Shown here one piece after another: positions 1 through 56,805 of a stretch of 64,000 bases of DNA (position 1 is its first letter; each line of letters opens with the position of its first letter). Under the pieces are notes generated by a model that worked only from the letters and a program-made list of their open reading frames with translations, was not told the DNA's origin and made no database searches. The stretch comes from Diacronema lutheri (taxonomy: Eukaryota; Haptophyta; Pavlovophyceae; Pavlovales; Pavlovaceae): NCBI GenBank assembly GCA_019448385.1, contig JAGTXO010000007.1:124001-188000 (forward strand), written 5' to 3'. The position numbers and the translations under genes are program-made.

Positions 1-1986
1 ACGGGCTCGATGTTTGGCACCAAGTGGAACGTGTGCGGGGTCATGCTCCCGAAGCGCGCCGAGCAGCGGCCGCAGCCCGGCTCGGACGCCTTCGCCTCGT
101 ACAGCGTGGCCGCCTGGGCCGACACGTTCGACTCCACGGGGCTGTACGTGCCCGACGAGCGCGAGCGCGCGGCGGCGCTCGCGGCGGTGGCCGGTCTGCG
201 CACGGCGCGCGCGCCGGCCGGGCCGGGCGGGCGCGAGCTCGCGCGCGCGCAGGGCTACGATCGCGCCGAGCAGGCTGCGAGCGCGGCGGCGGCGCGCGCG
301 GCGATGGCCGAGACCGGCCAGCAGCGCGCGCTCCACGGTGCGGTCGTCGACTCGGCGCTGCGCGGCGTGGGCGACCGGCTGCACTTTTGCGACGCGCCGG
401 GCGGCACGGGCAAGACGTTCGTCGAGCGCGCCATCATCGCCGCCGTGCGCGCGGATGGGCACGCGGTCGTCGTGTGCGCGTCCTCGGGCGTCGCCGCCAC
501 GCTGCTGCCCGACGGCCGCACCTTCCACTCGACCTTCAAGGTGCCCGTCGGCGCCGACTCGGACGGGCAAGCCGTTCAATGGCGTGCCGCGCTCCGAGCG
601 CGGGCGCTCCGTGGCCGCCGCGGCGAATGATCGTGGGGGACGAGGCGCCGATGCAGACGCGGTGCCACCTCGACTCGCCTGATCGGTGTTTGCGCGACGT
701 GACGGGCGTCGACGAGCGCTTCGGCGGCAAGACGTTGCTGCTCGCCGGCGACTTTTGCCAGTGCTTGCCGGTGGTGCGGCGCGGCTCGCGCGCGCAGATC
801 GTGCGCTCCTGCCTCGAGTACTCGGCATCGTGGCAGCACGATCGGCCGTACGCCTTGGTCGAGAACTCTCGCGCCTCGAACGCGGCGCGCGACACGGGCG
901 ACGCGCTCGGCGCGGGCGAGTGGGCGAAGCTGCCGCGCAGCCTCGGCGACGGCGCCTTTCCCGCGGCGGTGCCGCCTGCGGGGGCCATGCCCGGCGCATT
1001 CCCGCTCGATCCCGTGCAGCTGCCCGAGGCGTCTCGGCCTACCCGGCGGAGCTCGTAGCCACTCGCCTCCTCTCGCTCGGCGAGGGGCTGTGCAGCGGCA
1101 CGCGGCTGGTCGTGCGCGGCGTGCGCGCCGGCGGCCGGCTGCTCGAGTGCGCGCGACCCGGCGCGGCCGCCGGGCGCGACAGCACCGTGCTCATCGCGCG
1201 CATCGACCACCACTCGCCCGACGAGGGCACGTTCGCGTTTGCATGGCTGCACCGCCAGTTCCCGGTGCGGCCGGCGTAACAAGGCGCAGGGTCAAGCGCT
1301 CGGGTGCGCGGGCGTGTGGCTCGCCGAGCCGTGCTTCACGCACGGCCAGCTCTACGTGGCCGCTTCGCGCGTCGGGCACGCGTCGCGCATCCGCTTTGCG
1401 CTTGGCCCGGACCCTGTGACGCGCACCGTCGTCTTCAAAGAGGTGCTCCGCGCGGTCAGCGGTGGCGAGGCGGCGGCGGCGGCGGCGGCGTTCGCCGCGG
1501 CCGCCGTCGCCGCCGCGCGCGAATGCGCGGCGGCGGCGCGCGGTGGCGGCGGGCGCGGCGGGCGCGGCTCGGACGGCGCGCGCGGCGCCGGCGGCGGGCG
1601 GCGCGCTGGCGGCGGGCGCGACGCCGGCGCGCGGTGCTGCCCAGCACCCGCCGGCGCGACGCCCGCCGCGCCGCTCGCGGCCGACGCGCAGCCGGCGGGT
1701 GCTCGCCAACACCGCGCGCCGCGCGACTGGCCCGCGTACCTGCGCGCCCTTCTAGGGCGCGCAGGGCGGCGCCAATGCGGCCGGCAAGCAGGGGCCTCAA
1801 GCCGGCGCGCTGCCCGACGCCGCGTGGGTCGCCGCCGCGCGCGTGCCGTCGGCGCTGCCGCCGTCCGGCGTCGCGCTCGCGCCGCTGCCGCAACCTCAGC
1901 CGCCGCCGCCGCCGCCGCCTGCCGGCAAGCAGGGCAAGCGCGCAGCGGCGGCGACGGCGGTGCGCGGCCCGGCGAGCAAGCGGTAG
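1..1986 (+). pseudogene. Helitron-type Pif1-like DNA helicase, decayed, 5' end outside window
   Basis: This is a superfamily 1B helicase of the kind fused to the Rep domain in Helitron rolling-circle transposons. The motifs run in family order but in different frames: Walker A PGGTGKTF near 400-420, the ASSGVAATLL and TFHSTFKVP block (480-545), DEAPM (about 640-655), FGGKTLLLAGDF (720-755), LPVV..GSR, the EGLCSGTRLVV block (about 1080-1115), then NKAQGQ and FTHGQLYVAASRV (about 1275-1375). The frame changes at roughly 560-640, again before 1080, and near 1280, with no convincing introns there. Normally Arg-bearing motifs read GDFCQ and ENSRA. Decay is therefore more likely than splicing. An Ala/Gly/Pro-rich tail ends in PASKR at 1986. 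The Rep nuclease would lie upstream of the window. It is a plain DNA transposon gene and neighbours the USP/Fanzor block. Confidence 0.75.
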
Positions 1987-3149
1987 CGGTGCCGCCGAGC
2001 CGGGGGCGGGCTCCGTGGGCGACGCGGCTTGGCCCGCCACTCGCACCACTCGCGCCGGGCGCGCACAACGCGCCGTGGTCCGCTGCGTGGCCGAGCGAAA
2101 ATGCGGTCCTGGCACGCCATGCGGGAGAGGCCGTACAGCGCGTGAGCTTGGGCCCGTGATTTATTACTCATGGATTTATTACTCATGCCATGGCGTCGCG
2201 CCACGATTACGCCCGTGGCCCCGGCCGCCAGCCTCGCGCCGCTACGCCGTGTCGTCGCGGCCGGCGCACACAGCGAACTGTGTGTCCGCGGCACATGCCC
2301 GGCTGCTCGCGAGCTGCAAGCTTGCCGAACTGCTCGCGCTAAAATGGCGCGTTGCGGGCGTGCCCGCGCACCGCGCGTATGTTCCGCGCGTTCCAGGCGC
2401 GCCGCGCCGCGCGCCGAAGCGGCGCGCGGCGCACGTGCGGCCGCGAGCCGAAGAGGGGCCGGCGCGACCGGCCGCGAGGCAGACGCAGACGCTCGGCGTG
2501 CCGGTCGACGCGTCGTCCAAATCCGCGTCGGGCGGATGCGCGCCTAGGCCGGCGCTGCGTGCAATCGGCGCGGGTCGCCGCCGCATGACGAAGCATGCTT
2601 CCATCCGGTGCTCGGCCACGCGCTCGGGCGTAACGTTCGCGCCTGTTCGGCCGAGGCGCACTCGCCGTCCCCTCGCGCCGGCAATGCGCGTGCGTGCCAG
2701 CACGCCGGCAGCGGAGGATGCCACGGCAGCGGCGAGCGGGTCCCCGCCGGTGTGCCGCTCGGCGCCCCGTCACGCGCAACGCGCGCGCCGCCCGCTGAAC
2801 GCGCACAATTGCCTGGGCAAGATCGTCCCGCGCTCACGCCGCCGTCGCATCGTTCCATGCATGGCGCCCGGCTCGTCCGTACCGCTTTCGGGCAGTGCCG
2901 CGACGCCCTTTTTCAAAGGCGGGTGCCGCGCTGATTCGTCATCGGCCACCATCCATCTGGCCCTCTAAAGCCGGTTTGCGCGTGGGCGCCCGTCCGGTGC
3001 GAGAAGCGGCTCGCGTCCTCGCGCGGGGCGCCTCCGCGCCAGGCGCCCGGCGCGCGCTCGTCTTGCCGCGCCACCACGCTGATCTGCGCCCAACCCTCGC
3101 TCGCCTATTCCCCCGTCGTTTCTGCTGCGTAGCCCGCAACAGCGCGCGC
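1987..3149. other. spacer between helicase remnant and USP-like gene
   Basis: No conserved protein is recognised in any frame. Long frames exist on both strands but are Arg/Ala-rich translations typical of stop-poor GC-rich DNA. The stretch holds a 15-bp AT-rich tandem duplication at 2158-2187 and may contain the 3' end of the helicase element and the promoter of the USP-like gene. Confidence 0.5.
2158..2187. repeat. 15-bp tandem duplication, AT-rich
   Basis: The unit GATTTATTACTCATG occurs twice back to back. It is the most AT-rich patch within several kilobases and lies between the decayed helicase and the USP-like gene. It could be a duplicated insertion site, a promoter element or a poly(A) region; the sequence alone does not decide. 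Confidence 0.8.
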
Positions 3150-4756
3150 ATGACGCGTGCACGGCGCAGCGCCTGGAGCAACTTCCGAGTCGTCGGCCGG
3201 CAGCCTGTGGGGGGCGCGTTCATCGGCCCGATGTGGCCGGTGAGAGTGCCCGACGTGCCGCGTGGTGAGCGCCTGCACGGCTCGCCGGGTTCGGCGCGTT
3301 CCCAGTCGGCCTCTCTCCGACCCGCCGTAAACCTTGCGTGCGCACCCCGCACACCCGGCGCTGCGCGGCGCGGCGCAGGCGTGAAAAACGAGGGCAACGC
3401 GTGCTACGTGAACGCCCTCGCGCAATCGCTCGTCGCCTTGAACGTGCTCCGTCCGATGCCCCGCTCCGCTTCGCGCCGTGCGGGAAGAGTCGAGAAGGCG
3501 CTTTTTCGGGACTTTGGCACGCTGCTCGAGGACACCGAGGCGCCGGCACAGCTGTGTCTTGTGTCCGTCGTCGACGTCATCTTGGGCCGTGGCACGCGAG
3601 GGACGCAGCAGGACGCTGCTGAGTTCTTCCAGATGCTACTCGGCCGAGTGCCCGGGCTCGCTGCTGCCTTCGAAGACGACAGACGCGTAGTGCTCGAGCC
3701 GATCGCTGTGGCCTCGAGCGAGCGCGGTGAGGGCATCGCCATCCTCGTCAGCATTGGCGGCGATGCGGCGCGCACGCTCGCACACGCTCTGGGGGGCGTC
3801 GCTGGGCCGCCGCAGGGTGGCAGCCCGGACGCGTGCCGCTCGGACGTGCTCATGCCAGCCAGCATTGCCGTCGAGGTGCCGCGCACGACGCGCGGCAATG
3901 GCTCGCAGTGCAAGAACAAGCACGCGTTCGTGTGCGCGCCGCGGCTGCTACTCGGCGGGCGCGACTACCTCCTCGTCGCCGCCGTCGTGCACTTGGGCGA
4001 GGAGTCGACGAGCGGGCACCTTGTCGCCATCGTGCTCCGCAACGGGGCTTGGTTTCTGTGCGACGACGACAACGTGCGGCGGCGCGCACGGCCGCTTGGC
4101 GCCGCGACCGGCGGTTGATCGCAGCCGCAGCCGCCCCGTCCTCCCGCGCGGCACGCGCGCGTGGCCTGAAAGCTCGCGCCGCGCGCCTGCCGCACGCACG
4201 CGCGTTGCCCGCGCAGATGCACAACTTGTCTCAGTCCGACGCGCTGGCGTGGGCAAGTGGTGCGAGCATGCTCTTCTACAGCCGGCTCGACGCGGAACCG
4301 TTGGACCCGGCGCTGGGCTCAGCGTCACCGCCGTCGGCCGCATCGCCTGCGTGGCCGAGCTCGGCGCCCGACGCGCCGACCCTGTCGGCAGCCTGGTCGC
4401 GGGTGCGGCAGATGGCAGCGGTGCCAACAGATGCGACGATCGGCATCGCGGAGACGGCTGCAGACACCTCTGCGGCGGCGATCGGCCCAGCTGCGTGCGA
4501 GGCCCGCCAAGTTGTCTCCGCGACGCGCGCATTGCCAATGGCGGTGAGTGCCTCGCACGCGCACGCCGTCCGCTGTCCACAGCGTGGCGCCCGGCGCTTG
4601 CGTTCGCGCCAGGTAAAGTTTGCGCGTATAGCGTGCAGCACCCTCACGCATCCCCTACGCCTCCCGCCCGCCCGACCTCTTGCCCGCCGGCCGCGCGCAG
4701 GACCAGCGCACGCCAATTGTTGGGCGCGGCCAAATCTGGGCATGCGCAAATTTTGA
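3150..4756 (+). CDS. USP-family (C19) deubiquitinase-like cysteine protease, two exons
   Basis: It is predicted to cleave ubiquitin or a ubiquitin-like tag. The Cys box KNEGNACYVNALAQSL has its catalytic Cys at codon 3402-3404. The QQDAAEFFQMLL box lies near 3605-3640. The His box is SGHLVAIVLRNGAWFLCDDDN with His at 4017-4019. The frame then closes, but the usual C-terminal USP strand is recovered (MHNLSQSDALAW..GASMLFYSR) if an intron 4074-4216 (GTGCGG..CGCAG, phase 0) is removed. Exons are 3150-4073 and 4217-4756, giving about 487 residues. The first ATG in frame after a GTG-only extension is 3150, and 3231 is an alternative. The N-terminal 80 residues and the C-terminal tail are unrecognised. 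It sits between a Helitron helicase remnant and the Fanzor-bearing frame, so it may belong to a mobile element; Helitrons often carry OTU proteases, and a USP would be a variant on that theme. Confidence 0.7.
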
Positions 4757-5027
4757 GCCGGCAGCGGAGGGCGGGGATGCGCAGCACAACTGGCGCAAGC
4801 GCACGTGGTGCCCGCAGCACGAGCAGCGCGAGCAGCGCGAGCAGCGCGAGCAGCGCGAGCAGCGCGAGCAGCGCGAGCAGCGCGAGCAGCGCGAGCAGCG
4901 CGTGCAGCGCGTGCAGCGCGAGCAGCGCGAGCAGCGCGAGCAGCCCTGGCAGCCAGCGCGGCCAGGCCTCGGCGCGGGCGCTGGCGTTCGGCCCGCTGCT
5001 CTGCCGCCGAGCCATCCGCGCGCCAGC
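4757..5027. other. short spacer with 9-bp microsatellite
   Basis: This stretch holds mainly the (GAGCAGCGC)n array. The giant downstream frame is open through it from 4680, so it could be coding (EQR repeats), but the first ATG followed by ordinary-looking protein is at 5028. Confidence 0.4.
4821..4943 (+). repeat. (GAGCAGCGC)n microsatellite, about 13.7 copies
   Basis: A 9-bp unit is repeated with two GTGCAGCGC variants near the 3' side. Because 9 is a multiple of 3, all frames stay open: EQR, SSA or RAA repeats on the plus strand. Confidence 0.95.
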
Positions 5028-7993
5028 ATGCGCGCGAGCAACCGCTTCGAGCCGCTCTTGTTGGCCGAGGCGGACGTGCCCGCCACCGAGCCCGCCGCCG
5101 CCCAGCCCGCCGCCCAGCCCGCCGCCGAGCCCGCCGCCAAGCCAGCCGCTGCCAAGCCCACCGCCGAGCCCGCCGCCCAGTCCACGGCCCAGCCTCCCAC
5201 CGTGCCTGACGCCAAGCCAGCCGACCAGCCCGCCGTCAAATGCGCTGCCGCCAAGCGCGCTGACGACCGCATTGCTGCCGCTGAGGTAGGCGCCGTCGCC
5301 GCCACGCTTGCCGCCGCCACCGAGCCTGGCGGCGTTGCCGAGCTCGCCGCCGCCGCCGACGAGGGCTGCAGGGCGCGTGCCGACGCGCTCGCCAAGCGCG
5401 AGACCCGCCGCGCGCTCCACCGCGAGCAGCTTTTTCGCGAGGACAAGCGCGCGGCCGGCCGCCTGATCGAGCAGTGCGCGCTGGGCTCTGCGGACGATGC
5501 AGCGCGCGCGCGCGCCCTGCTCGAGCGCGTCAAGGCGCGTGGCCACGCGCTGCCTCCGCACCTGCTGCGGTCGCTGCGCGACCTCGCGTCGCCGCGGCTC
5601 GCGCTCGCCGCTGAGGCGGCGGGCGTGCTCGCCGCGTCCGAGATGGGCGAGGCGGACGCACCTGCGGAGGCGCGCGCGCTACTCATGCACGCCGAGGCCG
5701 TGGGCGCCCACCTGCCCGCGCACACAGAGCTCGCGCTGCGCCGCGCCTGCATCCCCACCGCCGAGCAGGCGGAGCTGCTCGCGACTGCGCGCGAGCTGCT
5801 CGCGCCGCGCGACCCCGAAGGCTCGGTGGCTCCGGCGGGCGCGCGTGCCGAGTGCGACGGCGCCGCGCTCGGCACTCGCGCGCGCGAGCTCCTCTCGCGA
5901 CTCGACGAGGCGCACCTCGACGTGCAGCCCTGCATTGCGCGGCAACTGCGCCGGCTCGCCGCCACCGAGCCAGACGCAAGTTCGAGCGCTGCGCTCGCCG
6001 CCACGCCCGGCACCGCCGGTCGCGCGGCCGCCGAGCCGCGGCGCGCGTGGCGCCCGCGCGGGTGGCGTCTCGCGGTAGGCGCAAAGGGTGCGCGCGCGCG
6101 CGCGCGCGCCGCGGCTGCTCCGCTCGACACGGCGCCGCCCGCGGCGGCCGGCGCCGTCCCGCCGCTCGAGCCGCAGCCCGAGCGCCGTGCAGCCGACGCC
6201 GCGGCCGCCGCAGCGGCGCCGGCGGCCGGCGACGACGGCGTGGCACGCGCGCTCGCAGCCGCAGCGCGCGGCGACGGCCTCGACGGCGTCGATGGCGCCG
6301 ACGACCTCGTTTGCGCGCCGTGCGACCGAGGCTGCGCGCACGCACGCGACGGCGGCTGCTGCGAGCCTGCCGCGCGCAGCTCGCCCGACCAGTGCCCGCG
6401 CGCACCGCCGCGGCGCGCACGGCGGGCGGCAAAGCGCGCGCGCGACCGGCTGCGGAGATCAATCGACAGGTCAGAGCGGGCTGTCGGCCGCCGATTGCGT
6501 GGCGGCGACGCGCGCCGCGAGCGCAAGCGCAGGTGCGCGACGGGCGGCCAGCACGCACCGCAGCCGCTCCGCCGCGCGAGTCGCAGCCCGCCGTCGCGCA
6601 CCGATCGGCCCTCGGCCGAGCATGCCGCCGAGCCTGCCGCCGAGCCCGACAGCCCCCACCGCCGCCCGTGTGCCGGTGCCGCCGTCGCCGTCGCCACTGT
6701 CCGGTGCGCCGTCGGCATCTTCGCGAGTGTCGTCGCCGCCTCTGCCGTCCGGGCCGCCATTGCTCCGGCCGCTCGCCCGTCTGCAGCCACCGCCTTTTGG
6801 CTCGTCGCCGTGTGCTCGGCCGCCGCATGGGCCGCCTTCGCCTCCGCCGCCCGCCCGACCGCCGCCTTGGCCGCGCCGCAGCCTGCCACGCAATCGTCGG
6901 CCGCCGAGCCCACCGCCGCCGCGCCAGCCCCCGCCCAGCCCGCCGCTGCCGAGCCAGCCGCTGCCCAGCCCGCCGCGGCCGAGCCCGCCGTGGCGCAGCG
7001 CGACGTCCAGTCCGCCGCCCCGGCGCTGCTCGCGTGGGCGGGCGACGCGGCTGCGCTCCGGCTGGCCGATGCCGCCGCGCGCGCCGGCATCCCGCAGGCA
7101 GAGGTGGACTGCATTGCGGGCGGCGACATGCTCGCCTCCACTGTGGACGCTTGCTGCGAGGTCGTGCTGCGCGTGCACGGGCAGGCCGGCGAAGGGCGCG
7201 TCTGCCACGTACCGCTTGCCGCTCAGCCCGCGGTGTTCCAGGACGGCGCCGAGCGCGCCGCGCTGCTGCACCGCCTGCACAGCGAGGCGACGACGCAGGC
7301 GGTCATCGGCATGTGGAGCCCGCCGGGCGGGCGCGGCGGTGCGGGCAGTGACGATGGCACGCCGCCCGCCTCCGGCCATTTCACCGCGTTGCGCCTCGTG
7401 CGCGTCGCGCGCGCGGGCGAGCATCGCTACGACGCGGTGCTTGTCGACACGCTCGCGTCGCCGAGCAGGCAGGCGCTCAAGCGTGCCAGGTCGATAACCG
7501 CCACGCTGCACGCGGCGGGCCTCGACGTCTTGCCCGTGCGCCGCGCGCGGCTGCTCGACAACGCGGCGCAGCGTGGCGCGACGTGCGGCCTCGCCGTGGT
7601 GGGCGCGCTCAACGACGCCGCGCTCGCTGCGGCGGGCGGTGCATCCGCGCCGCGCACGTTCAGCGTGGCGGACATGTACGCTGTTGGCGAGCACCTCCGC
7701 GTCGCGTTGACTGGCGCGGTCAGCGGGCGTGCGCCGAGCGGCGCCTGCGCCGGGGCGGGCGCGGTGCGCGGCGGGGGCAGCCGCGATCGCGCTGCCGAAG
7801 CGCCGCGGCAGACGCGCGGCGCCAAGGCCGCCGCAGACGCCGCCGCCGCTGCCGCCGTTCCGCCGCCGCCGCCACCTCCGCCGCCCGCGCTGGGCGCCGC
7901 CGCCGCCACCACCACCGCCGCTGCCGCTGCTGCCGCCGCCGTGGCCGCGCCGCCACCGCCGCCACCGCCGCCGCGTGCCGGCGACGAGGGCGA

Positions 7994-8044
<51 letters not shown>

Positions 8045-11000
8045 GCGCACGTTCTTGAAGCTCGCGCCCAGGGCGCGCGCGGCCGCCTCGGCGCGCGAGG
8101 CGTTGCGCGCCGCGTGTGCGCGCGCGGACGCGGCGGCGTCGTCACACGCGTCGGCGCCGCACGCGCCCGCCGATGCGCGCCGCCGGCGGCGCGCGGGCGC
8201 AGGCGAGCTGGCGCTCGCGGCTGCGCGCGCGCTCGCCTCGACGGAGCACGGCGATTTGACGGACGACGCGCTCGAGGCCGCCGTCGAGCAGGAGCTGGGC
8301 GACGAGCGCGGCCAACTGCTGCTGTGCACGCGGGGCGCAGCGGCGCAAAGGCCCGCGCTTTGCCGGCTCCTGAAGCACGCGTGCGCGTCGGCGCGCGCGG
8401 CGAAGCGCGCGCAATTCACGGTGTTCGTCGTGCGCGCGGCCACGCGCGGCGAGCGGGGGGGCGCCGCCGCGAGGCGCGTGGACTCGGTGGTCGAGCTGTC
8501 GTGCGCGCTGCACGAGAAGGCGGGCGCGCTCGGCGGCCTCCAGAGCGTCTGTGTGCGTGGCTTTGCCCTCGAGCGCCGCCGGACACTCGACGCTGGCGCC
8601 GAGGCCGGCGCGTCCGCCATCGGCCAGGACGAGCAGGTCGAGGCAGAGGCGGGCGAGGCGTGCGTCGCCGGCGTGACGATGGCCAAGCAGCTGCGTCAGT
8701 TTGCCGAGCAAGCTGCCCGCGACGACGTGCTCTTCCGCGTCGCCGTGTCCGAGGCCGACGCCCACGCCCGGCTGGCGCGCGTTGCGGGTGACGATGTCGG
8801 CGCGTACAGCGTCGTGCTCGCAGTCGCCGGGCTCGTCTGGCTGGCCAAGGCCGACGAGGTTGCGCCGGCGGCCGCCCAGTCCGCCGCCGCGCCGCCCGCC
8901 GCCCCGCCTGCTGCCGCCACGTCCGCCGACGCCGAGCGCGACGCCTCGCCTTCCGACCGCCTGCGCGCGCTGACGCTCGCCGTGCGAGTCGCGCTCGCGC
9001 GCGGCGTGCTGCGCCACCTCCTCGCCGACGCGTCGCCGGGCGCGTCCGCGACCGCTGGCGGTAGTTGCGCGACGCCCGTCGACGCGGCCGCGTCCGACGC
9101 CGCGCCGCCCGCCACGGGCGTCGTGACGAGTGGCGTCGCGGCGGGCGCTGTGGCGGCCGCACCGGCTGCTGCGGGCGGTGCGACGGCGGGTGCATCGCCC
9201 ATCGCGCGGCCGGCGAAGCGCGCGCGGCGCACGCTCACCGCCGCTCCAGCCGCCTCGGCCGTTGCGGCCGCTGGAGGCGCACGCGCGGGCGCACGCGGCG
9301 CGGCCGGCGCGCCTCGCGCGCGCGCCGCGCGCGCGCCGGCCGAGTACGTCTGGCTTGCCATCGCGCGCCGGATGCTGGCGGCGCGACACGCGGCGGCCGC
9401 GGGCGGCGACTTTGTCGCGTCGTGCGTCGCCGCGATGCAGGCCGAGTACGGCGACGGCTGTGCCGTCGTCGTCGGCGACGCGCCTGGTGACGCCTTGGTC
9501 GAGGCTGCGGCGGCGGCGCTGCTCGAGGGCAAGCACGCGGCGGTGAGCCTCGGCTGCGTCGACCGGCCGGCGGTGCTCGTCGTGCAGCGCGCCGTGGACG
9601 CGCCCACGTCGCGCGTGCACGGGTGGTGCGCGCACGCGGCGGGCGCCGCCGAGTTTGACGAGGGCGCCGCGCACGGCGTGTTCAACGCGATCGTCGAGCG
9701 CGCGTGGGCGCTGCGTCCGGACCCGGCCGACGGCAGCCCGCCGCCCACGCGCACGTGGGAGGTCGAGCGCATCGCTGACGACGCGCCCGACCAGGCGGGC
9801 GTGGCCGCGCTGCGCGTGCTCTACGCGCTCGTCGCGGCGCACGGCCGCTACCGCTCGGCCGCCGCGCTCTCTGGCGCGCTCGCGCAGCTGCACGCGCCCG
9901 ACGCCGCCGGCGCGCGCGCGGAGGTCGCCGCGGCGGCGTGCGCGGTGCCGCCCGGCGCGCGGCCGGGCGCCGCGCCGGCGGCCGCGCGGGACGACGCGAG
10001 GGAGCGCGCATGGGAGGGCGCTCGGATCGCCGCGCTCGCCGTCGGCGCGGACGCTGCGCGCAGGCGTGTCGCGCCCGTGCGCGCGCTCGTCGACGCGCTC
10101 GGCACGCCACCGACCTCGGCGATCACGGGCGGGCCGGCGGTGCGGCTCGCGGGCGCGGGCGACGGCGGCCACGGTGCACGGTGGGTGGGCGGGCAGGCGG
10201 CGACGCCCGCCGAGCAGCTGCCGAGGGAGCTGCTGCGCGCCTACCACGAGGCGGTGCTGTGCGTCACGCCCGGCAGCCTCCAGCTCGACTCGGCGGCGCT
10301 CGACGCGGTCACGCGGCCGCGCGAAAACGACACGCTGGAAGGCCTCCTCGCGCGCGTCAGCTGGCAGTGCGGCGCGAGGGCGAGCACGTGCGCCATGCTC
10401 GCCACGTTTTCCGAGCAGGCGGGCACCGGCTCGCGCGTCGCGCTCAAGGCCCTCCGCACGAGCTCCGACCTGGCCGGGCTGACGGCGGCTGCGGTCGGGC
10501 AGCAGGCGCCGCAGACGCCGCCGCCGCCGCTGCTCGTGATGCTCGGCCGCTGCCCCAGCCCGCTCGTCGGCGGCGGCCTCTTCCCGCCCGACCGCGCGAC
10601 GGGCGAGCCGGCGGTGCACGCGGCGACGTCCGAGCTCGCCGTCGAGCTGCTGCGCGACGCGCGCGCGCTGGCCGGCACGGACGGGCGGCTCGTCGTGCTG
10701 TGCCTCGAGGCGTCCAACCCGCTCTGGTTCTGCCCCAAGGTGCGCGAGCTCGAGCTGCCGCGGACGCGGTCGGACGGCGTGCGCGCGTCCGGCTGCACCT
10801 GCCCTGCGACGTGCAGCGATGCGCGCGGCGCGGCGGGTGGCGCTGCCCGCGGCGCATCGACGCGGCCGGCGGCGCGCGCGATCAACAAGGCGGTGCTCGA
10901 CCACTTCGTCGCGCTTTTCGGCCGCGAGGGCTTCGCGACCTTTGAGTTTGCGGGCGGCGGCGAGGCGAGCTGGCTGTGCGACAGCGCGGCCGGCACGACG

Positions 11001-14000
11001 ACCGTCGCGGCGTGCGCGTCGCTCCCGCCGCGCATGGGCGATGGGCAGCTGGCCATCCGGCGGCACACGCTCGGCACGGGCGCCGGCGCGCCGGCGCACG
11101 CCGTCGTCTCGCTCCGCGTCGCGCACGTGAGCCACGCCATCCGCCGCGCGGCGCACGACGGCGGCGCGCGCGCCGAGCGGATGGCGCGCGCCGCGCGCGC
11201 GTTTTGCGATGTGGCGGCCGCGCTGCGCGTCGACGCGATCCTGGCGGAGGTGCCCGAGGACCGCCCGACGGGCACGCCCTTCCTTGGCGGGCTGCTCGAG
11301 TTTTGGAACAAACGCCACGGGAGCTCGACGGCGCCAGCCACGCTCGCGCTCGGAGACGTGCGCGAGGTGGCCAAGCGGACGGCCGACGCAGCGGCCGGCC
11401 GAGCGGACGAGGTCCCTGCGGCTGGCCGTCCGCAGGTCGCGGCGCGCGCGTGCGCTGGCGCGATTGGCGGCGGCGCGGGCGCGGCGGGCGCCTCGGACGC
11501 TGCGCCCCGTGCACTGGCGGGCGCGTCGGGTGCGCGCACGGACGGCGGCCCTGCCGACGCACCGCGCCAGCTGGAGAGCCGCTACGGCGAGGCGAGCAAG
11601 CTCGACCTACCCCAAGATTCCACTACGGGCTGCGTCCTCGACGCTCGCGAGGCCCAGGACCGCGCGCGCGTGCCTGCTGCGCCCGACGGCACAGCGCTGC
11701 GCCGCGTGCTCGACGCCGTCGGCGCGGGCGCGCCCGCGCAGCGCAGCCCGCGCTGGCACGACGAGCGATGGGAGGAGGTCACGGGCAGCAAGGTTGGCGA
11801 CGTCGTGAACGACAACGCCGGCGTCGCGCACGAGACGCTCACCGACGAGTACGTGCACCGGCGGCGGCGCGAGGTGCGGACCAAGGCGACGACCGCGGGC
11901 ATCCTCGGCGAGGCCGTCGCGCTGCGCAAGCTGGCGGCCGCGTACGGCATCACCGTCGTGTGCAACCTGCCGATGGTGCGTGCGGACCCGCACGACAAGA
12001 GCGCGCCGTTCGCCTTCTCGCCGGACGGGCTCGCCATCCTCCCCGAAGACAACGAGCAGGTCCTCGTCGAGGTGAAGACGCTCACCAAGGCGGACGCCAA
12101 GGCGCACGAGGACGGGCCGCCGCAGCCGCACCGCGATCAGCTGCAGCTCGGCATGCACGTCCTCGGCGTGCGCAAAGCGCTCTACGTGCAGTACCTCAGG
12201 CACGAGGACCGGATCGTCGTGCACGTCGTGACGCGCGGCGCCGGCTGGCTTGCATTCGCGCAGCCGAGGGTGCAGGCCTTCTGGGCGCGCGTCGTCGAGC
12301 GGCGCGCGCGGCTCGAGCGCGCGCGCGCCGACCACCCGGCTGCGAGCCGGCGGCACCGGCGGCAGCAGACGCCGGCCGGGCCGCCGCTCGTGCTCGCGCT
12401 GGACGGGCGCATCCCCGCCGCGCGCGCCGCCGCGCTGCACGCCGTCGCGCACGGCACCGCGAGCGCGGCGGCGGTGGCGGCGACGGCGGCGACGGGCGAC
12501 GCGACGGCGTTGCAAGACGCGATCGCGGCGCTGCGCGCGCCCGTCGGCAATGCGGCGATCGACAGCGCAGCGCGTGCGGAGCGCGCGGCCGTCGAGCGGG
12601 CGATCGCGTACCTCGGGCAGCCGGCAGGCGACGCCGCCGCCCGCGGCACGGCCGAGGCGGCCGAGGAGGAGAGGACGGTCGACGCCGACATCTGCGCGTT
12701 GCTGCACCAGCTCGGCGCGAGCGTGGCGCACGTGCACGTCGAGGACGCGGATTGCGTCACGCGTGAGCACTGGGGCGGGGCGGTGCTCGCTGCAGCGGGC
12801 GACCCGTCGAGCGCCCCCGCCATTTCGAGCGTCATCGTCGCGCACATCGTGCGGCTCGCCGGCTTTGGCGTCGAGCTCCCGCAGTCGATTCGCGTCGCCC
12901 CCAGCACGGCCGACTGGCACGAGGGCTGGCTCGACGTGCAGTGCGTGCTGCTGCGCACGCGCCGGCGCGGGCGGCGCGACGACGACTTTGTGGCCGTCGT
13001 CAGGCGCGGTGGGCGCTGGTTTGCGTGCGAGCCCGGCCGCGCGCGGCGGCTGCAGTGGCGGTCGGTCCTGCGCCGCGCGCGCGGCGGCGTCGACGGGACC
13101 GGCGAGGAGGCGTTCGCGGTCGTCTACGTGCGGCGCGGCGACGCGGCCGGCGACGCGGCTGGCGACGCGCAGGCCGAACGGGCGCGCGGCGGGCGCGCGC
13201 GCAGGCGCACGCGCGGCGGCACGCGCAAGCGCAAGCGCGGCGCCTCCGCCGGGCTCGAGGCGGCCGCGCCCGCCGGCGCGCCGGCTGCCGCGCCCGCCGG
13301 CGCGCCGGCGGGCGCTGCTCACCGCCCGCCCGCCATGCGCGCGACGGTCGCCGCGCGCACCACGCGCTCTGTGACCGACGCGCGGCACTCGGCGCCTGCC
13401 GCCACGGTTGCACCTGTCTTCGACTGGCGCGCCGGCCGCCCGCCCCCCGCCGCTCGAGCCCGCCACCCGCGGCCGCGTGGGCGCGCGCCACCGGGCAAGG
13501 CCTGGGACAGCGTCTCGGGTGCGTGGGCGGACAAGCCGACTGGTGCTGCCGTCGCCGGCGCGCCGCCGCCGCTGCCGCCCGCCGCCGCGCCGCCGCCCAC
13601 CGCCGCGCCGCCGCCCGCCGCCGCGCCGCCGCCCGCCGTCGCGCCGCCGCCCGCCGCCGCGCCGCCGCCGCCGCCGCCACCGGCGGCGCTCGGCCGCCGG
13701 CAGCACGTCGGCGCGGGCGGCAGCGCGGCGGGCCGGCGGCTCGCGGCCATCGCACGGCGGCAGCGCGGCGTGCGCGCGCCGCCGCCCGCCGCGCGCTTCC
13801 TCGCCACGCTGCCGCCACCGCCACGCGACGGCCTCGCGCGCACGAGCAAGCAGGCGCGCGCGAGGCGCAACGCGGACGGACGGCCGGCGCACGCGCGCGC
13901 GGCCAACGCGCGCGCCTTCTACCGCGGCGTGGAGCTCGGCGTGCACGCGACGCGCGCCATCGTCGACGCGCGCCACGCCGACCTGCCGCAGGCCGTCTTC

Positions 14001-17000
14001 GTGGCGGAGGCGCGGGCGATCGTCGCGCGCTCCGCCGGCGGCGGCGCGCTGCTCGCGCCGGACGACGTGCGCGACCTGTGCGACGCGCAGACGGACGCCG
14101 ATCGCGCTGCGATCTGGGCGTCGGTGGGCGCGCACGAGGCGACGCGCATCTTCGCGCTCGTCACGCGCAACGCGAGCTTGGCGGGCGCGGCGCTGCTCGT
14201 GCTGCACACGCCGGCGGGCGCGCCGGCGCGCGCGCTCGGGCTCCTGGCGACGCGCTCGCGCGCGCCGTCGACGGGCGCGCCGCGCGACGCGCACAGGGCG
14301 CTGGTGCAGCGGTTGGACGTGCTGATGGACGCGATCGCCGCGGCGCGAGGCGCGTCGCCGCTCGAGCTCGAGCTCGCGCTCGCGCCCGAGCCGCAGAGCG
14401 CGTGCAACGCGCGTGCGGCCGCGCTGCTCTGCCTGCAGGCCGTCGCGGACGCGAGCGGCCGTCCCGCCGCTGAGGACGCGCTGGCCGCGCTCGACGACGC
14501 GCGCGGCATCGACCGGCACTGCCACGCCGTCCGGCAGCAGATCGAGGCGAAGCTCGCGTGGCGGCGCGCCGACGGCGCCGTCGGCGTTGACGGCGCCGAC
14601 GGCGCGCCCGCGCTCGCGCCTGCCGCCGCACCGCCGGCGTGCGCGCCGGCGCACGCTGCCGGCGAGGCGGCGGTCGACCAGGCGATCGTCACGCGGGTGC
14701 GCGACGCGCTGCGCGCGTGGGCGACGACTGGCACCGCGCCCAGCGCGGCGGTGCTCGACGACGCCTGCGCCGCGTACACGGCCCGCGCACGCGCGCGCAA
14801 GGACGCGCGCACGGCGCTGGGCCCGACGCGCGCGGCCGAGCTGCTCGCCGCGGCCGCGCGCGGCGGAGCCGACGGGGCGGATGCCGCGCGCGCGCTGCTC
14901 GGCGGCACGCCGCGCCTGCTCGTCGTGCTCCTCTGCGTGCCCGTCGCCGCGCCGTCCGGCGAGCCGCCGCGCCCGGTCGGGCTGCTCGTCGCCGACCGGC
15001 CGACGGACGACTCGCGCCCGGCCGCGCTCGTGCGCTACGACTTTGCGCCGCTCGACGCGGACGTGGCCGTCGCGGTCGGCGCGCATGCCGTCGCGCTGGC
15101 CAGTGCGATCTGGCCGCTGCTCGCGGCCGAGGGGGAGCCGCGGCCATCGCCCGTCGTGCGCTCGCAGCCGCGCGGCGGCGACGATGGCGCGCGTGCGCTC
15201 GCAACGTTCGCGTGCCTCGACGCGCTGATGACCGCCAGCGTCGGCGCGCACGGCCTCGCGGGCGGCGCGGGCATGCTGCCCGCGCTGGTCGCGCGAGGCG
15301 CCGCGGCCGCCCAGCGCGAGCGGCAGCTGCGCGCGGCCGCCGAGAGGCTGGGCGGCACGGTCGCTGGGTGGCCGGACACGGGCGCGAGCGCGGCGGGCGC
15401 GAGCGTCGACGAGGAGGCGCGCACGTACGAGGTCGAGGCGGTCGTCGACGAGCGCCGCAAGGCGGGCAAGAAGGTGACGTTCCAGTTCCGGATCAGGTGG
15501 CGGGGCTACGACGAGAGCGCCGACACGTGGGAGCCTGAGGCCAACGTGAGCAGCGACCTCGTCGCCCAGTTCCGCAAGACGCGCGACGAGCAGAAGCGGC
15601 GCGCGGGCGTATCGGGCAGCGGCAGCGGCGGCGCGGGCGCGGCGTCGGCATTGGCGTCGGCGCCGCTTCGCGCGCACGGCGAGTCGGGCGCCGCGGGCAA
15701 GCGCGCCGCGGCGGGTGCCGCCGCGAGCGCGCGCGACGCCGCGGGCGCGCGCGCGCCGAGCGTTCCCCGCGCGCGCGGCGTCGAGCGCGCGCGCGTGGAC
15801 GAGCCCGCTGCGCCGAGCGCGCGCGCCGCCGGCGGCGCGACGGCGCGCACGCGCGGCAGCGTGCTCCCGGGCTTCGTGGTCAAGCGCTCGACGCTCAACG
15901 CGGGGCCGCAGGCGGTGACGGCGCAGCCCGGTGCGCGGAAGGAGCTGCGGCGCATCGCGGCGGCCGTGCACAGGCTCACGACACAGGCGTACCGCGTCAT
16001 CAACAAGGTGGTGCGCGACGAGGCTGCGGTGGCGAGCGCGCAGGCCGTCGGCGCGGCGTCGGGCGGCCCGTCGACCAGCGTGCACACGTCGACCACGATG
16101 GACAAGGGAACCGTCCGTGCGATCTTCTCGGCCATCGGCTGGCACAAGGACGAGAGCACGTACGGTGCAGCGCCCCGAGGCAAGCCCGCCGAGCAAGCCG
16201 CCGCGCAGACCAAGGCGGCGACGGCGCGCGCCGTCGGCGAGATGGCCGAGGGCGTCCAGCCCGTCTGCGCGGTGGGCCTCACGGAGATCCTCGAGGCGGA
16301 GGCGACGCAGGTGTCCACCGCGTGCCTGATGCATCCATCGCGCGTCGTGAACGGGCTGCTCCGCGACGTCGTCCGCGCGGCAGTCGAGCGCGACGAGGCG
16401 CTCGTCGCGCTGCCCGAGATGCAGCGAAACGCGCGCGTGCGCGAGCTGTGCGAGCGGCTGCTGCGCGGCGACGTGGAGGGCGCGCGCGTCGGCTGCCCCG
16501 CCGCGCTCGACCGCCACCTGCCCGACATGGTCCTCCACAAGATCGACTACAAGTGCACGCCCACGAAAAGGTGGAACTACGACCGGCACACGACGCGCTA
16601 CTTCCTCGTGCAGATCCGCACCCTGCAGCACGTGGCCGAGGGGCAGGCGCTGCTCTGCCGGCTCGCGCACATCCACACGCAGCTGACCGGACGGCCGCCG
16701 CGGTACAATGTGGCGCCGCTGCGCACGCACAATGTGCGCGCGAGGCGTGGCTGCCGCTGCCGCCGCCGAGCGCCCAAGCGCGCGCGCCGCCGCCGTGCGC
16801 GCCGCCCCGCGGCCAGGTTGGTCACGCGCCCGCGCGCTCGCGCGCCGCGCGCTGCGCGCAGGTGCCGCGCAACGTGCGCCTCGCCGCGAGCGCCATCTGG
16901 GTGACGCTTTCGGATGACGAGCGCAAGGAGCTGCGCGCGCGGCTCAAGGCGCTGGACCTGCGCGACCACGATGGCGAGCCGATCAAGTGGACAGGCACAA

Positions 17001-18586
17001 ACGGCAACACCCCGCCGATGTCGGACGTGCGCGTCAGGTACGCGGTCTTTGCGACGCGCTTCGACATCTCCAACCGCGTCTTCGACTACGCCGGGCGCGA
17101 GCGGCCGCCGGCCGATCTGCCGTGGCACGCGCGGCGCTCGTGGGTTGGCCTCGCGCCGCTGCCGCGCGTGCCGCTCCCGGGCCGGCAGCCCGTCAAGTCG
17201 GTGGTGACAGATGGCGTCGCCGTGCACGCCGTCGGGACCGTCCTCGTGCCGAAGGCGCAGGCGCCGGCCGGCGGCTCGGGCGTCCTGCACCGCTGGCGCC
17301 GGCCGGACGGGCGCATCGCCGTCGCGCTCGGCTCCGAGCTGCGGCGGGCGATCGACGTCGAGGCGGCGGTCGTCGTCGCGGCCGACCCGAACATGGGCAA
17401 CATCACCACCTACTCTGCGCACGTCGGGCGGGCGGCCGTCTGGCGGCAGTTCACGCAGCGCGCGCGCGCGCGCGCCGCGGGCTTTGCGCGCGAGACGGCC
17501 AAGACCAACGCGGCGCGGCGGCGCGTGCGCACCGACGGGCGCGGCGAGGAGTTCAGCGTGGAGGCGGACGAGGCGCGGCTTGGCGAGGCGCACAGCGCCA
17601 AGGTGCTCGACGCGGGCAAATACATCGCCTTCCACCGCGAGAGCGCGCGGGTGCGCGAGCGCGCCGCCGAGCACGTGTACGACGCGCCGGCGCGCCGGAA
17701 GGAGCGCTGGCGGCGCGACAGCGGCGGGCGGTCCAACGCGGCGCGCGTCGCCGAGGCGCTCATCGCGGCGCACTGTGTCGACGGCGTGACGCGCGACCGG
17801 CTGCTCGTGTGCGTGGGCAAGTGGCTGCGCGACCACAAGGGCGCGCAGCCCAAGGGCGCGCCGCCCGCCTTCCAGGTGGGGCTGCTGCGCGAGCTGCGGC
17901 GGCGCGGCGTCGCGGCCGTCTTCGTGCCCGAGCCGTACACGTCGATGCACTGCTCGATGCCGCGGCTCGCCAAGGGCGGCAGGCTGCAGCGCTGCGGCGC
18001 GGAGCTCGCGCAGAACCCGCGCCTGCCCGTGGCAAAGGGCGGCACGCGCACGGTGCACGCGCTCGTCATCTGCCCGGCGTGCAACGGCGGCAAGAAGCCC
18101 GTGCACCGCGACTACAACGCCGCGCGCAACATCTTCTACGACGTGCACGACATGGCGGCGCACGCGGCCGGGCGCGACACCACGTCGACGCCTGAGCGCT
18201 TTGCCCTCGTGCTCGCCTGGTGGGCGCGCGGCGAGGTGTGGGAGCGTGAGGAGCGCATGGTGCACGGCGAGGGCGACGACTGCGACGACGAGTGCGACGG
18301 CGACGACGAGGGCGACGACGAGGGCGACGACGACGACGACGACGATGGCAGCGGCGACGGCGGCGGCGGCGAGGGCGACGGCGACGGCGACGGCGACGGA
18401 GGCGGCGGCGGCGACGACGACGATGACGGCGGGGGAGGCGGCGGCGGCGACGGCGGTGGCGACGACGGCGGCGGGCGCGGCGGCGGTGGCGGCGGCGGCT
18501 CTCGCGCCCGCACCCCCGCCCGCGGAGCTGCCAGCGCCAGTGCCGGCGGCGGCAGCGCGCGCGGGCCGAAGCGCGGCCGGCGTTGA
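5028..18586 (+). CDS. giant multidomain protein: C48 peptidase, PD-(D/E)XK nuclease, chromodomain, Fanzor
   Basis: Exon 1 is 5028-16733, open from 4680 with ATG chosen at 5028. Exon 2 is 16862-18586. Joined through a phase-0 intron they give about 4,476 residues. Domains in order: helical N-terminus (about 5028-6000), Pro/Ala linkers, Ulp1-like peptidase (about 7020-7680), unassigned modules, YqaJ-like nuclease (11745-12290), degenerate USP-like module (12680-13130), a Pro/Ala repeat, weak peptidase-like modules (13900-15250), chromodomain (15423-15580), Fanzor (15870-18586). The amino-acid mix in this frame is protein-like, while the opposite strand reads Arg-rich. GC-rich DNA keeps frames open by chance, so this may really be two or more genes with unseen introns. 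The part from the chromodomain onward is the firmest. Around 5900-6900 the frame looks poor and may hide an intron. It lies in a mobile-looking block after a USP-like gene. Confidence 0.5.
7020..7680 (+). other. Ulp1-like (C48) cysteine peptidase domain
   Basis: This domain of the giant frame would remove SUMO-like or ubiquitin-like tags. The catalytic tetrad appears in Ulp1 order: His in SGHFTALRLV (7377-7379), Asp in VLVDTLAS (7446-7448), Gln in NAAQRG (7569-7571) and Cys in ATCGLAVV (7584-7586). Spacing is 23, 41 and 5 residues; yeast Ulp1 has 17, 43 and 6. C48-like peptidases are common cargo of large eukaryotic DNA transposons. The assignment rests on motif order and spacing, without a database match. 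Confidence 0.6.
7843..8045 (+). repeat. GCC-rich low-complexity tract coding poly-Pro and poly-Ala
   Basis: There are runs of CCG/GCC triplets, including an almost pure GCC tract at about 7996-8043, read in the giant frame as Pro8-9 and Ala15-plus blocks. It is probably a flexible linker and a replication-slippage hotspot. Confidence 0.9.
11745..12290 (+). other. YqaJ-like PD-(D/E)XK nuclease domain
   Basis: The block is laid out like YqaJ/lambda-exonuclease-type recombinases: SPRWHDERWEEVTGSK at the start, a conserved Glu in GILGEAVAL (11910-11912), Asp in FSPDGLAIL (12024-12026), the ExK pair in LVEVKTLT (Glu 12069, Lys 12075), then a Q..LQLGMHVLGVRKALYVQY helix (Gln near 12138). All metal-binding positions are present. 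Known relatives are Mg-dependent exonucleases that make ends for single-strand annealing; here it would process element ends or breaks. It is part of the same open frame as the downstream Fanzor. Confidence 0.75.
12680..13130 (+). other. degenerate USP-like module
   Basis: The segment DDDFVAVVRRGGRWFACEPGRARRL resembles the His box of the upstream USP-like gene (SGHLVAIVLRNGAWFLCDDDN), and EEAFAVVYVRR resembles its last strand. The expected His is Asp here and no convincing Cys box precedes it, so the module is probably non-catalytic, perhaps a ubiquitin-binding relic of duplication. The comparison is by eye and weak. Confidence 0.35.
13562..13685 (+). repeat. 18-bp Pro/Ala-coding tandem repeat
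   Basis: The unit of the GCCGCCGCGCCGCCGCCC type is repeated about five times with A/G changes, coding APPP(T/A/V)A blocks in the giant frame. It acts as a linker between the degenerate USP-like module and the following region. Confidence 0.85.
13900..15250 (+). other. possible tandem degenerate peptidase-like modules
   Basis: Two segments (about 14130-14450 and 14910-15240) share a pattern of hydrophobic strands, a GLL(A/V)xR strand, an acidic/Pro loop, a helix, then a Gln-rich motif and a helix (EPQSACNARAAALL; SQPRGGDDGARAL). This recalls the Gln...Cys end of the C48 domain near 7570, but the catalytic Cys or His is missing in each. The call is tentative, and these may simply be an unknown fold. 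Confidence 0.25.
15423..15580 (+). other. chromodomain, aromatic cage complete
   Basis: The segment TYEVEAVVDERR..GKKVTFQFRIRWRGY..SADTWEPEANV follows the HP1/chromovirus chromodomain from first strand to the TWEP turn, followed by the C-terminal helix (SSDLVAQFRKT). The three cage aromatics expected to bind methyl-lysine are present: Tyr of TYEVE, and Trp and Tyr of RWRGY. It ends about 95 codons before the Fanzor N-terminus in the same frame, with a Ser/Gly/Ala-rich linker and no Met. Known transposon chromodomains steer proteins to H3K9me-type chromatin. Confidence 0.92.
15870..18586 (+). other. Fanzor: eukaryotic TnpB-like RNA-guided nuclease domain
   Basis: The N-terminal part (VLPGFVVKRSTLN.., a helix with TTQAYRVINKVV, then DRHLPDMVLHKIDY) lies before the intron 16734-16861. 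VPRNVRLAASAIW and the RuvC part follow it. RuvC-I reads VVVAADPNMGN (Asp 17384-17386). A Glu in FVPEPYTSMHC (17930-17932) fits the relocated Glu of Fanzors, since the usual RuvC-II site reads VCVGKW without Glu. RuvC-III reads HRDYNAARNI (Asp 18110-18112), followed by the family's RDTTSTPERFAL tail. The zinc ribbon uses Cys of SMHC, Cys of QRCG and CPAC. An Asp/Gly-rich tail (18270-18500) and a basic end GPKRGRR (possible nuclear signal) follow. No disruption is seen. Fanzors cut DNA under an omega-RNA guide encoded beside them and are often carried by transposons, Helitrons included. Confidence 0.9.
16734..16861 (+). other. intron inside the Fanzor coding region
   Basis: The donor is AAT|GTGCGC and the acceptor GCGCAG|GTG. 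The length of 128 nt shifts frame 0 to frame 2 exactly as needed, joining ..LRTHN to VPRNVRLA, which is a normal Fanzor sequence across the joint. The donor matches the GTGCG consensus of host introns in this window. Confidence 0.8.
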
Positions 18587-19054
18587 CGCACGGCCGAGCC
18601 GCGCAGCGGTCGACGCTTTGCGGGCTCTGCCCAGGTCGCGCGCGGCTGGCGACGCGTGCCGCGCGCGGCACGACCGTGCACGCCGCCACCCGTGGCCGAG
18701 CGCGCCGCACCAGCCGGCCCGCTCCAACCGCCGTGCGGATCACGGACGCTCGCTACGGCTCGTCGGCGCGCGTCACCTGCGCCGGCGGCCACGGCGCCGT
18801 CTGCTCCGGCCTCGTCGCGAGCAGCCCGACCGCTGCTCGCCGCCCGCACGCCGCCGCAGCAACGCTGCGCGTCGTGCTCCCCCGCTCGCCAAACGCGAAG
18901 AGCTCCCTCACAAGGACGTCCTTCCGAACGGCCCGCGCTGCACTCGGGGCGCGATCGTGCCCCTGATCGGATTTGGCTTGACCATCTATACACGTGACGA
19001 GCGCCCGCTCGATTTTGCTCTGTTTTTAATTTGTCGAGCGAGGTCCGGTTGCCA
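18587..19054. other. spacer 3' of Fanzor; candidate omega-RNA / element end
   Basis: This sits between the Fanzor stop and the 3' end of pescadillo on the other strand. It has no protein of its own. Its second half is a dispersed repeat (18851-18991). In characterised Fanzor and TnpB loci the guide RNA is made from the region at the end of the nuclease gene running into the element terminus, so this is where it would be sought. Confidence 0.4.
18851..18991 (+). repeat. dispersed repeat, copy 1 (possible transposon terminus)
   Basis: The 141 bp recur almost unchanged at 56663-56805 in the same orientation. The repeat contains a perfect 12-bp palindrome AAGGACGTCCTT (near 18911-18922) and ends in GGCTTGACCATCTATAC in both copies, after which similarity stops abruptly. 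It lies 265 bp after the Fanzor stop. Confidence 0.9.
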
Positions 19055-56662: not shown

Positions 56663-56805
56663 CCGCCGCAGCAACGCTGCGCGTCGTGCTCCCGCGCTAG
56701 CCAAACGCGAAGAGCTCCCTCACAAGGACGTCCTTCCGAACAGCCCGCGCTGCACTCGGGGCGCTCAACCGTGCCCCTGATCGGATTTGGCTTGACCATC
56801 TATAC
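56663..56805 (+). repeat. dispersed repeat, copy 2 (solo)
   Basis: The 143 bp match 18851-18991, including the AAGGACGTCCTT palindrome and the GGCTTGACCATCTATAC end. The main differences are a CTCAA insertion-like change after GGGGCG and scattered substitutions. It lies between convergent genes and supplies the stop codon of the BMT5-like gene. Confidence 0.9.

Follow-up and report, generated by a model that had tools for sequence, protein, structure and literature searches.

A chromodomain and a Fanzor-type nuclease share a coding frame in a giant, high-copy transposon of the haptophyte alga Diacronema lutheri

The window analysed here is a stretch of 64,000 nucleotides of the D. lutheri genome (contig 5, positions 124001-188000; the genome searched comprised 43,492,796 bases in 103 contigs), and its first 19 kb are occupied by a copy of a transposon that begins beyond the left edge. 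The 5' end of this copy lies at C5:121520, 2.48 kb to the left of the window, for a total length of 21.47 kb. This start is 97 bases later than in the two copies compared with it, and the 3' end is shared with 20 fetched copies, a few of which carry small differences. As listed in Table 1, a PIF1-like helicase and a ubiquitin carboxyl-terminal hydrolase-like stretch precede the 3' gene of the element, which would consist of a first stretch of 4,034 codons, a 128-base intron and a second exon, with a chromodomain near the end of the first stretch and a TnpB/Fanzor-type nuclease core in the second exon.

Table 1. Features of the transposon copy, in positions of the window.
Feature	Position	Strand	Basis and remarks
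Transposon copy, part within the window	1..18990	+	5' limits from comparison with two other copies; 3' end found in 20 fetched copies
PIF1-like helicase	1..1058	+	Pieces in two frames in this copy; PF05970, 6.8e-22 and 4.3e-19
Ubiquitin carboxyl-terminal hydrolase-like stretch	3378..4118	+	PF00443, 7.3e-15, 55.7 bits; best match 3378-3644
Giant open frame to inferred splice donor	4632..16733	+	Frame 3, 4,034 codons
YqaJ-like nuclease domain inside the giant frame	11754..12161	+	PF09588, borderline
Chromodomain	15426..15578	+	Frame 3; PF00385 (Pfam), 6e-12, 45.7 bits against a cut-off of 25.1
Ala/Gly/Ser/Arg-rich linker	15582..15855	+	Open, no Met; codon-position G+C 0.85/0.81/0.93
Fanzor-type N-terminal part, exon 1	15856..16733	+	Joins exon 2 in frame once spliced; start approximate
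Inferred GT-AG intron, 128 bases	16734..16861	+	Restores a single frame; boundaries conserved among copies; junction present in KFE25_006464
Exon 2	16862..18586	+	Frame 2; RuvC-type nuclease core, zinc finger, acidic/Gly-rich tail, stop
Putative catalytic Asp 1 (ADPNMGN)	17384..17386	+	Invariant in alignment
Cas12f1-like TNB domain (zinc finger and RuvC III)	17894..18133	+	PF07282, 4e-6, 27.3 bits, just above the cut-off of 26.3
Putative catalytic Glu, Fanzor-type position (ExxxxxxC)	17930..17932	+	Position rule from the available text of PMC10711439
Putative catalytic Asp 3 (HRDYNAA)	18110..18112	+	Invariant in alignment
Short hairpin near the element 3' end	18946..18963	+	Predicted with RNA parameters; DNA parameters predict another structure
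Element 3' terminal sequence	18972..18990	+	Shared among copies

The element is a high-copy giant transposon of ~31 kb, represented in the window by a 21.5-kb variant, and its copies are young. Its ends are TATATACGG...CATCTATAC, with the 3' end reading ...GGCTTGACCATCTATAC in 12 of the 13 ends read (TATAC). The exact 3'-terminal 19-mer, TTTGGCTTGACCATCTATA, occurs 202 times genome-wide (109 forward, 93 reverse) and the 5' end, TATATACGGCGCGGTCCGG, 110 times, an excess of 3' ends that solo or 5'-truncated ends would help to explain in part. The base preceding the 5' end is C in all 14 flanks inspected, and by eye no target-site repeat longer than this flanking C and the TATAC ends is seen. On contigs 1-47, a listed 3' end lies no more than 45 kb away from 31 of the 56 listed 5' ends; 14 of these pairs measure 31.0-31.1 kb, five 29.1-29.2 kb, three 26.0-26.5 kb and seven 21.4-21.6 kb, with one each of 12.7 and 35.9 kb. 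The copy on contig 9 (~31.04 kb) differs from the window copy in the middle, and the last 12 kb of the two are 97.7% identical. A solo 3' end of the same family (~140 bases, 95% identical) is found at 56663-56804 (+) of the window, where it adjoins what appears by eye to be the end of a PRPF31-like host gene. An inverted repeat (L029:7423-7740), whose arms of ~86-89 bases are 98-100% identical between copies, lies in the 5' portion of the transposon and is possibly a small nested element.

In the 31-kb copy the PIF1-like helicase is matched at 1.8e-24, together with a Pif1_2B_dom match at 5.3e-13. The frames and patterns scanned contained no recognisable transposase, whether a Rep, a tyrosine recombinase or one of another kind. 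The Rep profile PF14214, searched against the whole genome at E values up to 1, gave a sole match at C63:35738, and an HUH-plus-Tyr pattern scan of the 31-kb copy gave none; a strongly diverged Rep would escape both searches. Membership in the Helitrons is not claimed here, as the HUH Rep was not found, though the PIF1 part is present, and the ends of the element are not of the Helitron1 type (5'-TC...CTRR-3'). Helitron2 elements have a 5' T and hairpins at their ends; here a 3' hairpin is predicted under RNA parameters and not under DNA parameters.

The starts of contigs 1, 5, 6, 12 and 83 (L009-L013) and the end of contig 43 (L018) coincide with the 3' end of the element, and three of these six contig-edge copies (L010, L012 and L013) carry indels, perhaps polishing errors. 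TTAGGG arrays mark the starts of contigs 15 and 30, and the subread N50 of 23 kb given for the D. lutheri NIVA-4/92 assembly (43,502,671 bases, 103 contigs, 73.25% G+C; available text of PMC8379373) is shorter than the element; these edges are therefore taken to be assembly breaks, and targeting of subtelomeres was rejected.

The 4,034 stop-free codons of the giant frame compare with a longest forward run of 1,451 codons in 100 Markov resamplings, a null that is lenient because, on the opposite strand, a genuine frame covering part of this DNA extends for 1,778 codons. When the stretch from 4801 to 16800 is divided into 40 blocks of 300 bases, position 3 of frame 3 has the highest G+C in 33, and the other seven are mostly near-ties with position 1; thereafter the pattern shifts to frame 2, and the picture in the 31-kb copy is similar. 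The YqaJ-like domain scored 0.016 (15.9 bits) when the whole frame was the query, and 1.9e-4 (22.2 bits against a cut-off of 22) with a fragment. Ulp1-like protease domains were suggested by eye and found no support in Pfam, and no reverse transcriptase or integrase was matched in the frames scanned with Pfam. In the contig 9 copy, a second long frame of 1,345 aa lies upstream of the giant frame (approximately bases 11,700-15,750). The uninterrupted frames that hold some of the chromodomain matches elsewhere measure 5,339 to 6,136 aa, so a full protein of more than 6,000 aa is possible.

The chromodomain does not stand at the start of its frame, which reaches back to 4632. A preliminary description of this locus, made from the letters alone, had recognised a chromodomain with a Tyr-Trp-Tyr cage, and this is borne out by a PF00385 match far above its Pfam cut-off (4.6e-13 when the query was a shorter piece) and by alignment to known structures, the closest solved sequences in the PDB being CDYL, HP1 and their relatives. 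The aromatic residues Y, W and Y stand within YEVEAVV, RIRW and GY, at what we take, from HP1, to be the aromatic-cage positions; YEVE, RIRW and GY align with the CDYL and HP1 chains, the third place being F in HP1alpha. The cage strings are identical in 21 of 21 aligned copies, and a copy on contig 46 reads RVRW instead of RIRW, with W and Y retained.

Downstream of the chromodomain, the same description had read 15423-18586 as a single uninterrupted frame, and here it requires correction: frame 3 ends in a stop at 16904, the nuclease core lies in frame 2, and the inferred intron lies between them. Its statement that no Met separates the two domains holds, with no in-frame Met between those at 15273 and 16098 and the frame open from the chromodomain through 16733. 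It had also placed a Fanzor N-terminus ~95 codons past the chromodomain; this part is in frame with exon 2 after splicing, while a start near 15856 is a guess, and the exon 1 part from that position gave no family match of its own. The G+C of the linker is highest at the third position of frame 3, a weak signal (permutation P 0.010). The openness of the linker is no evidence by itself, because randomised sequence of its composition is open in ~71% of trials.

The intron is bounded by GT and AG in 21 of 21 aligned copies (that of the window and 20 others), with a length of 128 bases in 20 and 130 in one. As both the boundaries and the frame switch are shared by all 21, a copy-specific frameshift is ruled out as the cause of the switch. 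Searches with queries from the window found three database proteins (P0002, P0003 and P0004), and the giant-frame query found none among the scored candidates, those sharing the most words with it. The spliced junction PLRTHN/VPRNVRL occurs exactly in one of them, the annotated D. lutheri protein KFE25_006464 (P0004), which matches the element at 94-99% over a stretch, and the alignment of P0003, a protein from another assembly that is 46% identical to the nuclease, begins at the first residue of exon 2. The D. lutheri-like annotated fragments start inside the nuclease part. KFE25_006464, which has SAM domains, opens with the spliced Fanzor fragment; transposon exons have possibly been incorporated here into the model of a host gene.

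In exon 2, the putative catalytic Asp, Glu and Asp and the four zinc-finger Cys are invariant among the window protein, P0002 and P0003. The Glu stands six residues before the zinc finger (E-PYTSMH-C), and the first Cys pair of the finger is unusual in being 13 residues apart. According to the available text of PMC10711439, the signatures of Fanzor are a displaced Glu six residues before the zinc finger and a near-exclusive DPG at RuvC I; the latter is not found here, the window protein having DPN and P0003 DTG. Comparison of exon 2 with solved structures and NCBIfam returned only weak TnpB/Cas12f matches (E 0.015-0.25), and in one solved-structure comparison an unrelated enzyme (0.19) ranked above Cas12f1 (0.25). 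An AlphaFold model of exon 2 has a mean pLDDT of 41.9 and is uninformative on the RuvC fold. From its sequence, assignment to the TnpB/Fanzor type is well supported, the nuclease is likely a Fanzor proper, and it is probably RNA-guided. Folding the element's 3' terminus as RNA gave nothing out of the ordinary (z -0.56), Rfam returned no match, and a structured guide RNA was not seen there.

The order of the two domains recurs on many contigs of the alga's own genome. Genome-wide, 90 of the 146 chromodomain matches listed have a listed nuclease match downstream at near-constant spacing; among the listed nuclease matches, an upstream chromodomain is present in 90 of 115 and absent from 25. Most of the 56 unpaired listed chromodomain matches (41) are on contigs 70-84, where no member of this nuclease family was listed. 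The nuclease matches that were scored, 91 of 423 first-look candidates, are all at 99% identity or above (91/91). Both coding parts are intact in 18 of the 21 aligned copies, the failures (L010, L012 and L013) being frame-breaking indels in copies at contig starts, and a copy of 97.6% identity keeps the frame through the linker and has a 2-base insertion in exon 2. Conservation among the copies is weak evidence, because they are nearly identical, that is, young and not independent. The two most divergent copies compared show no enrichment of substitutions at third positions, and this comparison is uninformative on selection. No annotated chain with both modules was found in three protein searches, in which the candidates scored were those sharing the most words, and no relatives were confirmed in viral contigs, in GTDB genome contigs or, for exon 1, in phages. 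Judging from their scores and positions, approximately 35 of the 150 listed TNB-domain matches appear to represent other families of Fanzor-like proteins (e.g., C85:60775, C9:378667 and C71:952894), and seven of these lie in open frames of 1,484-1,779 aa. A 1-kb piece of another Fanzor family (L058) has no chromodomain visible by eye.

A shared coding frame for the chromodomain and the Fanzor-type nuclease is supported by the open frame itself, the codon signal, the recurrence and the spacing. The fusion originally proposed is supported to the extent of this single, recurring frame; a dedicated two-domain enzyme is less likely: because the same frame continues ~3,600 codons upstream, a giant protein is the likelier product. 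We put at roughly 0.5 the probability that the element makes a single giant protein whose last modules are the chromodomain, the linker and the Fanzor. In the window copy this protein would be ~4,600 aa long and carry, in this order, a YqaJ-like nuclease, the chromodomain and a flexible linker, with the TnpB/Fanzor-type nuclease at its C-terminus, and we infer that the giant frame and exon 2 are translated as a single chain. A separate chromodomain-Fanzor gene beginning at Met 15228 or 15273, and encoding 1,076 or 1,061 aa, is rather unlikely. These two Mets lie closely upstream of the chromodomain, the next occurring only at 16098, and large Fanzor1 proteins approach this size; however, the coding stretch upstream runs into such a gene without an in-frame stop, no drop in codon signal precedes either Met, and no annotated protein of this kind was present among the scored candidates of 524-1,668 and 276-878 aa.

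It is unlikely that the domains end up in two proteins, with the chromodomain closing the upstream one and the Fanzor released through an intron in the linker, a transcript start or proteolytic cleavage. The low complexity of the linker, its weak coding signal and an openness expected by chance (P ~0.71) would all allow this, as would 13 AG dinucleotides from 15579 to 15880 that are possible acceptors, the ubiquitin-hydrolase-like domain encoded by the element, and the beginning of the annotated fragment P0004 within the N-terminal part of the nuclease. Still, codon-position G+C in the linker favours frame 3 at the permutation P given above, and before 16098 there is no in-frame Met from which a Fanzor with its N-terminal part could start. 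Very improbable, and largely refuted, is the view that the juxtaposition is meaningless, the frames lining up by chance or through decay or the assembly being at fault: each domain exceeds its curated cut-off, the arrangement recurs across many contigs and the frame is far beyond chance length, even though DNA so rich in G+C yields long open frames on both strands and frame-breaking indels occur in three of the 21 aligned copies, each of which lies at the start of a contig.

The nuclease resembles Fanzor1 in its PF07282 domain, in the series Asp, Glu and Asp, with the Glu displaced to six residues ahead of the zinc finger, and in its position near the 3' end of a eukaryotic transposon. It differs in that a chromodomain and ~3,600 further codons precede it in frame, in having DPN rather than DPG at RuvC I, and in its widely spaced first zinc pair. 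In chromoviruses, which are LTR retrotransposons, the chromodomain likewise lies close to the C-terminal end of a polyprotein. There it is placed after the integrase, whereas here it precedes an RNA-guided-type nuclease, with no reverse transcriptase or integrase matched in the frames scanned. The Chlamydomonas Helitron2 elements CRe-1, CRe-2 and CRe-3, as presented in the available text of PMC3627910 (Bao and Jurka 2013), are comparable in being algal elements of high copy number with an intron-bearing Fanzor, an excess of 3' over 5' ends, and a hairpin near the 3' end (predicted here with RNA parameters only). Their insertions are 5'-complete and without target duplication, and no obvious target duplication is seen here. 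In contrast, that text describes the CRe elements as most likely non-autonomous and names no chromodomain in them; the present element is 31 kb long and encodes helicase, ubiquitin-hydrolase and YqaJ-like domains, with no Rep found. A combination of helicase and ubiquitin-protease-type domains is also shared with the Helitrons and Helentrons with deubiquitinase domains described in the available portions of PMC9741609 and PMC6431247, from which this element differs in having a UCH-type rather than an OTU/VTD domain, no detected HUH Rep, and ends other than TC...CTRR.

No description of a Fanzor or TnpB with a chromodomain was found in the open-access full texts searched, insofar as their available text extends, and to that extent the initial impression that there is no described example is upheld. 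Fanzor and chromodomain are mentioned separately, not together, in the available text of PMC6338049; that of the Fanzor structure paper PMC11423790 contains no words in 'chromo-' and no 'fused', and that of PMC10432273 neither 'fused' nor 'fusion'. On this evidence, from the available open-access literature, the chromodomain-Fanzor arrangement is new; Fanzor-bearing transposons are already known.

Were a single giant protein made, its chromodomain might tether it to methylated histone H3 tails, e.g., those of silenced element copies or heterochromatin, and its nuclease, with an RNA from the 3' (right) end of the element, might cut element-free sites. By analogy with TnpB, for which restoration of the element by cutting and repair has been proposed (available text of PMC10432273), repair from an occupied copy would then restore the element at the cut site. 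We propose tentatively, and as a possibility that is on balance doubtful, a two-key form of targeting in which the Fanzor is led to methylated nucleosomes by the chromodomain, and guide RNA and histone mark would together decide the cut. If true, a single alga would harbour, in more than a hundred young copies, a naturally occurring enzyme with two-key genome targeting.

The ~31-kb element extends the range of Fanzor-bearing transposons, and the arrangement touches on two open questions, namely how RNA-guided nucleases of the TnpB/Fanzor lineage locate DNA within chromatin and why eukaryotic transposons retain them. With a histone-mark reader and a nuclease in one frame, in many near-identical copies and in a culturable aquaculture alga, it becomes testable whether such a reader biases cutting or insertion toward marked chromatin, and the arrangement would offer a natural model for designing nucleases that respond to chromatin state.
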